Assembly (NCBI GenBank): GCA_012034075.1
Contig: JAAURD010000007.1
Coordinates: forward strand, 1 to 57,768
Length of the DNA: 57,768 bases
Origin: Chloroflexaceae bacterium
GTDB taxonomy: Bacteria > Chloroflexota > Chloroflexia > Chloroflexales > Chloroflexaceae
Reading direction: 5' to 3'
Shown: in pieces, positions 12,922 through 16,112 of the stretch
Layout of the letters: the number at the start of each line of letters is the position of its first letter
Numbering within the stretch: the stretch's first letter is position 1
Translations under genes and position numbers: made by a program
The notes under the pieces: generated by a model
Database searches by the model: none
Seen by the model: only the letters and a program-made list of their open reading frames with translations
What the model was told of the DNA's origin: nothing

Positions 12922-15081
12922 CTAGACTAACGGAGGGTCCATCATAGACCCAGTGTTCACCGTATGATACCCCATCGTGATGACCTGGCTGTCTCGATGC
13001 TCTTCATCTGGCGCTGGGGCAATCCAGATATACGAACCATCAGATTGGAGCACACGGGTACGAAGGTTATCCTGGAGATAGCTTGCCAGCAACGTATCGC
13101 GGATAAACGCCACCAACACCGGTTCTTCAACCGGGAAGAGCGTTTCCACCCGCCGATCCAGATTGCGCTGCATCATATCGGCACTGCCGAGATACACCTC
13201 ATCGTTGCCACCATTGCGGAAGTAGTAAATACGATTGTGTTCCAGAAAACGACCAACAATGCTGCGTACCTGTATATGCTCACTTAAACCAGGTACACCC
13301 GGCCGCAAACAACAAATACCGCGAATAATCAGATCCACCTGGACCCCTGCCTGTGATGCGCGATAGAGCGCGTCAATCACGGCTGGATCAACCAGGGAGT
13401 TCATCTTAAAGATAATCGCGCCATTCCCCTGCTTCTGATGCACACGCATTTCACGATCAATCAGCGAAATCATCTGATTCCGCAGCATAGCCGGAGCCAC
13501 CAGCAACTTCCGATAGTGGCGTTGATAGCTATAGCCGGTCAGCACATTGAATAACTCAGAAACATCGGCGGCAATATCCGGTCGACAAGTGAGCAACCCA
13601 AGATCGGTATACAAACGTGCCGTACTCGCATTATAATTACCGGTGCCAAGATGGGCGTACCGCCGAATACTGCCTTCTTCGCGCCGCACGATTAAAGCCA
13701 GCTTCGCATGGGTTTTGAGTCGTAGCAACCCATAAACCACATGCACACCGACACGTTCTAAAGCACGTGCCCAGATAATATTATTCTCTTCATCAAAGCG
13801 GGCCTTCAGTTCAACCAGCACGGCTACTTGTTTACCCTGTTCACATGCACGCATCAGTGCCTGAACAATCGGTGAATTTTTGCCTACACGATAGAGAGTC
13901 TGCTTGATCGCCAGAACATCGGGATCATCAGCAGCGCGTTCAATCAGATCGATCACCGGCTCAAACGAATCATAGGGATGGTGCAGCAATATGTCCTGGT
14001 GGCGAATAGCCGCAAAGAGATCATTGGGTTCTTCGAGCACACTCGGCACGCCCGAATAGAATGGCGGGTCTTTGAGATCCGGTCGGTCCAGTTTCATCAA
14101 TTCCATCAGGGCAGATAGGCCCAGCGGCCCTCGCACGGTGTAAATATCATCCGGGTCGGTATTCAGATTGGTGACGAGCAGATGGCGAATCTCCGCTGGC
14201 ATGGTGTGGTTGACGGTGATACGCACCACCTCTCCAAACCGGCGTTGACGTACTCCCTGCTCGATCGTAAGGAGCAAGTCGTGGGCTTCGTCCTCTTCAA
14301 TCTCCATATCGGCATTGCGTATGACGCGGAAGGGATAGGAGGCTATCAAGTCCATGCCAGGAAAGAGTGTTTCCAGATGTGCCGCAATCACCTGCTCGAG
14401 ATACACAAAGCAAGCCCGTCGCTCTGGCGGAATATCACCTGACCCATCACACAGATCACGTGGGAGCATGATAAAACGTGGCAGCACTTCAGGAACTTTG
14501 ACCCGTGCAAAGACCTCGCCACTGGTTGCATGATGCATCACCACCGCCAGGCTCAAACTGAGATTGGAGATATGCGGAAAGGGTCGGCTGGTATCGAAGG
14601 CCAGAGGCGTCAGCACCGGAAAGATTTGCTGACGGAAGTACTCTTCCAGAAATGCCTTTTGCTCCAGTTGCAACTCATGATAGTTGAGAATACGAATACC
14701 CTCGGTCGCCAGTTCGGGAACCAGATGATCAACCACGAGGACATGCTCCTGTTCAACCAGGTCCAACAGCATGCGCCGAATAGCTGCCAGTTGTTCGGTC
14801 GGGGTCATCCCATCAGGAGAGCGCTTCTGCACACCAGCAGCAATTTGCTGCTTGATTCCACTTACCCGAATCATAAAAAATTCGTCCAGATTGGAAGCAA
14901 AAATGGCAAGGAATTTGAGCCGTTCAAGCAGGGGGTTATCTGGATTCACCGCTTCTTCCAGAACCCGACGATTAAAATCAATCCAACTCAGTTCACGATT
15001 AAAATAGCGTGAATTGTGATCACCAGGTCTTAATAGTGGTTCAGACAATGCCAACGACAGTGGAAGCTGCTTTGTATTCAT
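12922..15081 (-). CDS. ppk1: polyphosphate kinase 1
   Basis: A 719-aa enzyme that polymerises the ATP gamma-phosphate into polyphosphate. It has the N-terminal YFNRELSWIDFNRRVLEEA, the autophosphorylated histidine motif YAHLGTGNYN, and the C-terminal catalytic region with HNRIYYFRNGG and YLGSADMMQRNLDRRVE. Length is normal. ATG 15081 is preferred for its GGAGG at good spacing; an in-frame ATG at 15096 overlaps the upstream stop (TAATG) and would add five residues. The gene follows a degenerate cyanophycin-synthetase-like gene and precedes thpR. Confidence 0.95.
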   Translation of the reverse strand: MNTKQLPLSLALSEPLLRPGDHNSRYFNRELSWIDFNRRVLEEAVNPDNPLLERLKFLAIFASNLDEFFMIRVSGIKQQIAAGVQKRSPDGMTPTEQLAAIRRMLLDLVEQEHVLVVDHLVPELATEGIRILNYHELQLEQKAFLEEYFRQQIFPVLTPLAFDTSRPFPHISNLSLSLAVVMHHATSGEVFARVKVPEVLPRFIMLPRDLCDGSGDIPPERRACFVYLEQVIAAHLETLFPGMDLIASYPFRVIRNADMEIEEDEAHDLLLTIEQGVRQRRFGEVVRITVNHTMPAEIRHLLVTNLNTDPDDIYTVRGPLGLSALMELMKLDRPDLKDPPFYSGVPSVLEEPNDLFAAIRHQDILLHHPYDSFEPVIDLIERAADDPDVLAIKQTLYRVGKNSPIVQALMRACEQGKQVAVLVELKARFDEENNIIWARALERVGVHVVYGLLRLKTHAKLALIVRREEGSIRRYAHLGTGNYNASTARLYTDLGLLTCRPDIAADVSELFNVLTGYSYQRHYRKLLVAPAMLRNQMISLIDREMRVHQKQGNGAIIFKMNSLVDPAVIDALYRASQAGVQVDLIIRGICCLRPGVPGLSEHIQVRSIVGRFLEHNRIYYFRNGGNDEVYLGSADMMQRNLDRRVETLFPVEEPVLVAFIRDTLLASYLQDNLRTRVLQSDGSYIWIAPAPDEEHRDSQVITMGYHTVNTGSMMDPPLV

Positions 15082-15095
15082 GAAATCCTCCAGCA

Positions 15096-16112
15096 TTATT
15101 GGTGCAACAGCATCTGCTGTAGCACATCATCCAGTGCATGCAGTGGAACAATATCAGAGGCAATAGACGGTATCAGGCTGGCAAAGGCTGGTTCGCTCGT
15201 GTTGAGGAGCACCTTACCCGTTGTCAACAGCATCGGCAAACCCAGTGCTTGAATCCATTCAAGCGAACTCTGTGCAACAGATGGATAAGGCCCATCACAA
15301 TCGGTCAGCACGCCCAACTGGCATTGGGCAAAAGCCAAACCACGCTGAATGATATCGGCCGTCTCCAACCCAATCACAACATGGTCGGCCTCAGTCTCGA
15401 TCAACCGCATCAGCGTGGTTTGATAATCAGCATCCTGTACTTTCTCGCAGTGGCATCCCACTGATTCACAAAACGCTGCTATGTGATCGACGACGGTGGC
15501 ACGTTGTCGTTCGCCGGTGACTGCATACAGTGCGACCGATGGAATATCCTCCCACCGTACCGCCAGAAGCATCTCATGAACAACGGTCGTCGGATCGTAG
15601 ACCAACCCATGTGTACCATAGCCGAGTTGGAATGCTCCATCAGGACGGTAAAGGACTGGTACACCACGTTGTTGCGCTTCGGCAATAAGTTGCAGACTGG
15701 CGATGGGCAGGGCCTCACGGCGGCATTGCTGCTTCAAATCAAACAGAGTTGGATCATCATACCACAGCGTATCGGCGGCAGTGTTCTCATCGCTGCTCCT
15801 CAGTTGAGCATTGAGGCGATCAACCGCATAACGAGCAATAGCTGCGCCCAGCCCTGGGGTTGGGGTTTGAAATGTCGCATCGATGAGCCAGGTATCTGGT
15901 TCAGGCCCTGGATTCAAACCTGCTATCGCTGTGACATCAAGCGAGACCATCACTATTCCCACAAACTGGGCCAAGTCTTTAAGCACAAAGGTCAGTGCCT
16001 GTTGGCAGTTATCGCCTGAGCCGATACGTAACCAGACTCCGGCATGCGGTCCGAAAATATGCGGGCCATCATACCTTCGGAGCAACACCATCTGGACCGG
16101 TTCGGCACTCAT
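15096..16112 (-). CDS. degenerate cyanophycin-synthetase-like protein
   Basis: A 338-aa protein that aligns by eye with CphA in pieces. Residues 75-170 match the CphA N-domain, including IAEAQQRGVPVLYRPDGAFQ and QLGYGTH (162-168). Residues 171-196 resume at the CphA segment just before its Mur-ligase domain, so the whole ATP-grasp domain is absent. The P-loop AVTGTNGKTTT is replaced by AVTGERQRATV (197-207), and LETARGG by LETADII (249-255), while RGLAF, the following GVLT and VLLNTSEP (301-308) remain. The Mur C-terminal domain is missing. ATP-dependent ligase activity is not expected; a binding or regulatory role is possible. The stop overlaps the region of the ppk1 start. Domain reading is by memory of the family, not by search. 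Confidence 0.72.
   Translation of the reverse strand: MSAEPVQMVLLRRYDGPHIFGPHAGVWLRIGSGDNCQQALTFVLKDLAQFVGIVMVSLDVTAIAGLNPGPEPDTWLIDATFQTPTPGLGAAIARYAVDRLNAQLRSSDENTAADTLWYDDPTLFDLKQQCRREALPIASLQLIAEAQQRGVPVLYRPDGAFQLGYGTHGLVYDPTTVVHEMLLAVRWEDIPSVALYAVTGERQRATVVDHIAAFCESVGCHCEKVQDADYQTTLMRLIETEADHVVIGLETADIIQRGLAFAQCQLGVLTDCDGPYPSVAQSSLEWIQALGLPMLLTTGKVLLNTSEPAFASLIPSIASDIVPLHALDDVLQQMLLHQ

Follow-up and report, generated by a model that had tools for sequence, protein, structure and literature searches.

The DUF4938 gene and its junction with ppk1

The window, by which we mean the whole 57,768 nt stretch of Chloroflexaceae DNA analysed here, carries on its minus strand a 338 aa ORF that runs from an ATG at 16112 to a TAA at 15098-15096. 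Its product belongs to a Pfam family of unknown function, DUF4938, and the gene lies directly upstream of ppk1. The features of the locus are:

15096..16112, minus strand: DUF4938 protein (PF16292), 338 aa, a predicted catalytically dead N domain plus Mur core (Pfam, AlphaFold2, Foldseek)
15588..16112, minus strand: CphA-type N domain, residues 1-175, without the Cx19HxxEH peptidase motif (hhalign of the DUF4938 N domain against the CphA N domain)
15123..15554, minus strand: Mur-ligase middle-domain (M) core, residues 187-330, cut off before the Mur C-terminal domain (hhalign, profile against CphA1)
15501..15518, minus strand: degenerate P-loop T199-G-E-R-Q-R204, Lys replaced by Arg (alignment; T, G and R in 24/24 members of family f1, the Chloroflexaceae)
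12922..15096, minus strand: ppk1 (polyphosphate kinase 1), directly downstream of the DUF4938 gene (TIGR03705, 903 bits)

An initial annotation of this DNA had stressed that the end of the ORF touches the start of ppk1. As listed, the two ORFs do meet in a TAATG junction with a 1-base overlap, but a GGAGG at 15091-15087 precedes an in-frame ATG at 15081, 15 bases into the listed ppk1 ORF. Because this ribosome site stands before that ATG, the true ppk1 start is probably 15081 and the listed start at 15096 too early. The two genes are likely to be co-transcribed in the window.

A CphA-like fold without the ATP-grasp domain

The window protein matches PF16292 at 151.9 bits (E 3.2e-44; residues 11-315 of 338, profile positions 7-293 of 302), above the curated cut-off of 32 bits and over most of the profile. 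The NCBIfam cyanophycin synthetase models match it in two weak, collinear pieces, namely residues 90-175 against CphA 120-198 in the N domain (E 6e-4) and residues 223-322 against CphA 525-629 in the M domain (E 4e-7); the ATP-grasp part of CphA falls between the two matched model regions and is unrepresented in the protein. At the level of the family, the DUF4938 profile aligned with the CphAs of the order over the M core (hhalign E 3.4e-13) and with the CphA N domain over 53 columns (hhalign 94.7%, E 6e-8), and retrieved solved CphA1 from the PDB (E 2.6e-32). The single window sequence gave chance matches only in a phmmer search of the PDB, and a Pfam search found no match to the CphA N-domain model PF18921.

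An AlphaFold2 model of the window protein, built from a 34-sequence alignment, reached a pLDDT of 93.8 and a pTM of 0.90. When this model was compared with the PDB by Foldseek, the ten best structures were all CphA1 chains (TMq 0.61-0.74), with values by query length of 0.72-0.74 for 7lg5 and 7wac over the N and M domains together. The alignments of approximately 650 columns covered both domains across the absent ATP-grasp. For comparison, TMq was 0.29-0.33 for CphA2 and about 0.25-0.35 for single Mur ligases. The resemblance of the window protein to CphA is greater than chance, and the modelling shows a predicted fold in which a CphA N domain packs against a shortened Mur-ligase middle domain. 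The initial annotation had proposed a CphA/Mur-ligase relative, to be checked by comparing a predicted structure with CphA1; given the concordant AlphaFold2/Foldseek, profile and hhalign matches, that proposal therefore holds. Relative to cyanophycin synthetase 1 (CphA1; 7lg5, 7wac), the N and Mur middle domains are held in common in an apparently compatible relative placement, whereas the ATP-grasp, the Mur C-terminal domain, the P-loop, the catalytic Glu and the N-domain HxxEH are missing. Among open-licence literature, we found no paper naming the DUF4938 family and none combining a Mur ligase with the term pseudoenzyme.

Catalytic sites lost and residues kept

As the initial annotation had read from the sequence, residues 140-168 end in QLGYGTH, and the next recognisable stretch, W187EDIPSVALYAVTGERQRATV, is already the start of the Mur middle domain. 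Only an 18-residue linker separates QLGYGTH from W187 and there is therefore no ATP-grasp domain between them; nor does the window protein have any Pfam match to ATP-grasp. Further losses were scored on one alignment of DUF4938, CphA and ‘N-Mur’ rows, the last being a name coined here for proteins with a CphA-type N domain and a complete Mur ligase but without ATP-grasp. The P-loop, TGTNGKTTT in CphA, is TGERQRATV in the window protein, as first noted. All 24 Chloroflexaceae members have Arg in place of its Lys, and members of other families have Ala, Ser, Glu or another residue there; the second P-loop Gly is gone in nearly all DUF4938 rows. ETADII had been equated with the ETARGG motif of CphA. 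The alignment at this site is ambiguous by two residues and RGG is lost under either placement, but the Glu is not the same one: the aligned position is Gly in all 24 Chloroflexaceae members in a gap-free alignment, and ETADII is a neighbouring ET. The Mur DH pair is also gone in DUF4938 rows. The Mur C-terminal domain is absent, as had been recognised, the protein ending at residue 338 before it with no PF02875 match.

The N domain has lost its own active site. The Cx19HxxEH motif belongs to the primer-making peptidase of the CphA1 N domain and is present in most CphA1s, whilst CphA2 (8fxi, 7ta5), like the window protein, is without it (PMC9262961). In the same alignment, HxxEH occurred in none of the DUF4938 rows and none of the N-Mur rows, against 10/10 CphA rows. 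With the P-loop, Glu, DH pair and HxxEH lost and the ATP-grasp missing, the three known catalytic sites of CphA1 are therefore all gone. Much of the N/M core is retained in DUF4938 rows. These alignments show that the window gene, an intact ORF, encodes a putative pseudo-ligase, conserved yet without the catalytic residues of the CphA/Mur family.

The old nucleotide site has a conserved feature of its own: T199-G200-xxx-R204 (TGxxxR) is invariant in 24/24 Chloroflexaceae members. The window copy has lost 16 of 58 otherwise near-invariant Chloroflexaceae residues yet keeps this motif.

Distribution and selection

DUF4938 was found in 53 of the 82 genomes of the order, in one copy each and nearly always with an open frame. 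It occurred in 35 of 400 sampled genomes of the phylum, all 35 within the order and none outside it, and in 0 of 14 control genomes. Among named genomes, a scan with a 9-row alignment gave 16 loci, all of them in records of Chloroflexota/Chloroflexales type (Chloroflexus, Oscillochloris, Chloroploca, Viridilinea and MAGs); a pattern taken from a single protein gave no match. The other families of the order are referred to here as f2, which we assume may be Kallotenuaceae, f3, which looks like Herpetosiphon, and f4, which looks like Roseiflexus.

That a truncated form recurs in 53 genomes bears on the concern, raised at the outset, that this copy might be a simple assembly deletion. Assembly deletion or frameshift was rejected: DUF4938 lacks the Mur C-terminal domain in many genomes and has no internal stops. 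That the gene is a functionless relic in decay, or an artefact of assembly, would fit the loss of every catalytic site and the divergence of the window copy, but is extremely improbable in view of the number of genomes with open frames and of the substitution pattern. Pairwise Nei-Gojobori estimates covered 18 close pairs, including two pairs of N-Mur proteins. They gave dN/dS of 0.06-0.20 in 17, with the N and M halves alike; the exception was the pair L013/L015, at 0.58. Because dN/dS is low in most close pairs, the DUF4938 family is maintained by selection, and decay is refuted for the family. The window protein resembles the other PF16292 members of the Chloroflexaceae in length and domain content but evolves faster, its end branch of 0.98 in the combined tree (below) being the longest of its family, and its own function could therefore be relaxed. 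At one further locus, L079 (G059:C3:150935-151694), the DUF4938 match is broken in two, each part in its own open frame, which reflects either a pseudogene or a misassembly.

Probable origin from N-Mur proteins

Five genomes of family f2, all of which also carry CphA, encode intact N-Mur proteins of 566-579 aa with a DUF4938 match at the N-terminus:

L080:1789-3495, intact N-Mur with DUF4938 N domain
L081:1892-3631, intact N-Mur with DUF4938 N domain
L082:1923-3638, intact N-Mur with DUF4938 N domain
L083:691-2418, intact N-Mur with DUF4938 N domain
L077:7896-9596, intact N-Mur with DUF4938 N domain

These proteins keep the TGTNGKTTT P-loop, an ETSRGG motif, the DH motif and the Mur C-terminal domain, and have no ATP-grasp; Pfam confirmed PF08245 and PF02875 (L077 checked). 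In both the f2 proteins and the window protein the N domain is joined straight to the Mur domain, whereas the Mur active site is intact in the former and lost in the latter. Homology between DUF4938 and N-Mur extends over the whole length of DUF4938 (hhalign E 8.9e-55), and an AlphaFold2 model of one N-Mur protein (pLDDT 81.7) matched most CphA1 entries over the N and M domains at TMq 0.72-0.75.

In the combined tree, the f2 N-Mur proteins lie at the base, followed by a 394 aa degenerate protein from G037 and then by the Herpetosiphon-type, Roseiflexus-type and Chloroflexaceae DUF4938 proteins, the degenerate forms grouping together with an SH-aLRT of 96. In an M-domain tree that took in cyanobacterial and proteobacterial CphAs (including those of Synechocystis, Trichodesmium, Acinetobacter and Tatumella) and four PDB CphA rows, the N-Mur proteins of several Chloroflexota groups stood apart from all CphAs with support of 100/99. 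When rooted on MurE, CphA was monophyletic (93/87) with N-Mur outside, although the monophyly of N-Mur itself is uncertain (66/34). An AU test of Chloroflexota CphA and N-Mur as one clade gave a p value of 0.088. All of these trees contain long branches, and the placement of their fastest rows is unsure.

The initial annotation had explained the protein as a CphA derivative from which the ATP-grasp was cleanly lost. We do not favour this account, as N-Mur proteins are already without an ATP-grasp and fall outside the CphAs. Direct deletion of the ATP-grasp from a Chloroflexota CphA is disfavoured by the trees, within the latitude left by the AU test and by the low support for N-Mur monophyly. 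Because the closest intact relatives lack the domain and are separate from the CphAs, its absence may be ancestral, and descent from a CphA that had lost its ATP-grasp is improbable. Given the full-length homology and the tree placement, we regard the window protein as an N-Mur that has degenerated further.

Our data supply a fold and an origin for DUF4938, a Pfam family that is regularly encountered in the Chloroflexales. A single lineage within one order still holds enzymes with intact sites alongside partly degraded proteins of about 390-400 aa and short pseudoenzymes, so that the steps by which a ligase becomes non-catalytic can be traced one after another. The N-Mur proteins that lie beside cphA in other Chloroflexota (below) are also relevant to the assembly of the three-domain cyanophycin synthetase. 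A bolder scenario, which we regard as doubtful, is that N-Mur is the older architecture, that CphA arose from it by insertion of an ATP-grasp, and that Chloroflexota retain N-Mur as a second ligase, so far unrecognised and frequently encoded tail-to-tail with cphA; the Chloroflexales would then have turned N-Mur into the ligand-sensing pseudo-ligase DUF4938, the P-loop Lys becoming a fixed Arg in Chloroflexaceae.

In other Chloroflexota groups, an N-Mur-type gene adjoins a full-length cphA, the two being convergent with 0.1-0.4 kb between the matches. The encoded proteins combine a CphA-type N-terminus with a full Mur ligase, are about 530-600 aa long where read, and have no ATP-grasp. Such genes form part of cyanophycin gene clusters and are uncharacterised as far as we found, no description having come to light in the open-licence literature. 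They occur (among loci L117-L151) at:

G210:C23, G226:C117, G080:C4, G149:C12, G068:C4, G076:C12, G199:C8, G156:C48, G313:C84, G281:C14, G163:C27, G097:C85 and G290:C12, N-Mur-type gene beside cphA

Genomes of family f3 carry, in addition to the short DUF4938 pseudoenzyme, a second, intact N-Mur paralogue of 538-549 aa with a shortened N domain:

L084:1620-3269, intact N-Mur paralogue
L085:1576-3192, intact N-Mur paralogue
L086:1948-3564, intact N-Mur paralogue

Neighbouring genes and storage polymers

The position beside ppk1 would suit a regulator of polyphosphate synthesis, made from the same transcript as PPK1 and binding PPK1 or polyphosphate. Beyond the TAATG junction in the window, the same order and direction (DUF4938, ppk1, LigT) is seen in G001, G008 and G016, where DUF4938 lies upstream of ppk1 and within about 1.5 kb of it; in G001 and G008 a thioesterase-like gene on the opposite strand intervenes. 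Scored across the relatives, however, these three and the window genome are the only cases of adjacency among 47 DUF4938 genomes. The two genes are apart in the other 43, by 0.4-3 Mb in complete genomes, and ppk1 also occurs in genomes without DUF4938. Linkage to ppk1 was therefore rejected as a family trait, and the arrangement in the window is mostly local. The protein itself is strongly acidic (pI 4.6 and a net charge of about -21, calculated from its sequence), unlike a polyanion binder. Its acidity and the unconserved linkage make polyphosphate binding, and a general polyphosphate role, very unlikely.

A role in cyanophycin metabolism, in which the protein would bind the polymer or a CphA subunit, is suggested by the shared N and M domains and by the intact N-Mur relatives that stand tail-to-tail with cphA in other Chloroflexota. 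The peptidase motif of the CphA N domain is missing, however, and co-occurrence speaks against such a role: the window genome (G000) and the single-contig genomes G033 and G042 have DUF4938 with neither a CphA above the cut-off nor any match to cyanophycinase, and the CphA-positive genomes G006, G013 and G014 are without DUF4938. At 88% completeness, the window genome could still hold a CphA that was missed, but the complete genomes of relatives show the same absence. Because of these three genomes, a cyanophycin role inferred through CphA/cyanophycinase co-occurrence was rejected, and the storage-polymer sensing first envisaged, at least in the cyanophycin sense, seems highly improbable.

In the Chloroflexaceae, the usual neighbour of DUF4938 is a gene for a class-I SAM methyltransferase (Methyltransf_11, UbiE-like), which stands head-to-head with it in 23 of 29 loci:

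L066:6996-7745, methyltransferase divergent from DUF4938
L067:7741-8577, methyltransferase divergent from DUF4938
21 other Chloroflexaceae loci, methyltransferase divergent from DUF4938

The methyltransferase was rejected as an obligate partner: six methyltransferase-positive genomes are without DUF4938, with no hidden copy beside the gene. Five DUF4938 genomes, that of the window included, have a weak methyltransferase match or none.

Proposed role

We consider it very probable that the protein is non-catalytic and descended from N-Mur. The fuller reading that we prefer, a non-catalytic binding or regulatory pseudo-ligase descended from N-Mur, is on balance the best explanation of the whole. 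Within it, the putative binding or regulatory mode is an evenly poised proposition, as the conserved residues could be purely structural. In our model, the DUF4938 protein would act without catalysis, holding a small ligand in the cleft that separates the N domain from the former nucleotide site and relaying the ligand state to a partner. Because TGxxxR is invariant at the old P-loop, a putative anion site may be placed there, with the invariant Arg touching an anionic group of the ligand; that the ligand is an anion is a tentative suggestion. In Chloroflexaceae, the divergent methyltransferase would be the likeliest co-regulated gene, and in the lineage of the window ppk1 would merely be co-transcribed downstream.

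Alternatively, a new active site may have arisen on the old fold, for example in an enzyme acting with the methyltransferase gene product. Strong purifying selection and the newly conserved Chloroflexaceae residues RP..A.DD.EW.RALG.PM, which are not found in CphA, are compatible with such a neo-enzyme. It is nonetheless unlikely, since the four families share no new invariant cluster of residues of catalytic type, and the positions that are invariant are for the most part Gly, Ala, Pro and Leu.

The non-catalytic pseudo-ligase that we favour can be set beside two known proteins. CphA2 is a CphA relative whose Mur-type half goes unused; it differs from the window protein in having a working ATP-grasp, and it ligates beta-Asp-Arg dipeptides. 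Foldseek also returned a weak match to the MurE-like subunit of the plastid-encoded RNA polymerase (8w9z, 8r6s), in which a Mur-ligase fold forms part of a complex instead of serving cell-wall synthesis, and which, in contrast to the window protein, is without the CphA N domain.
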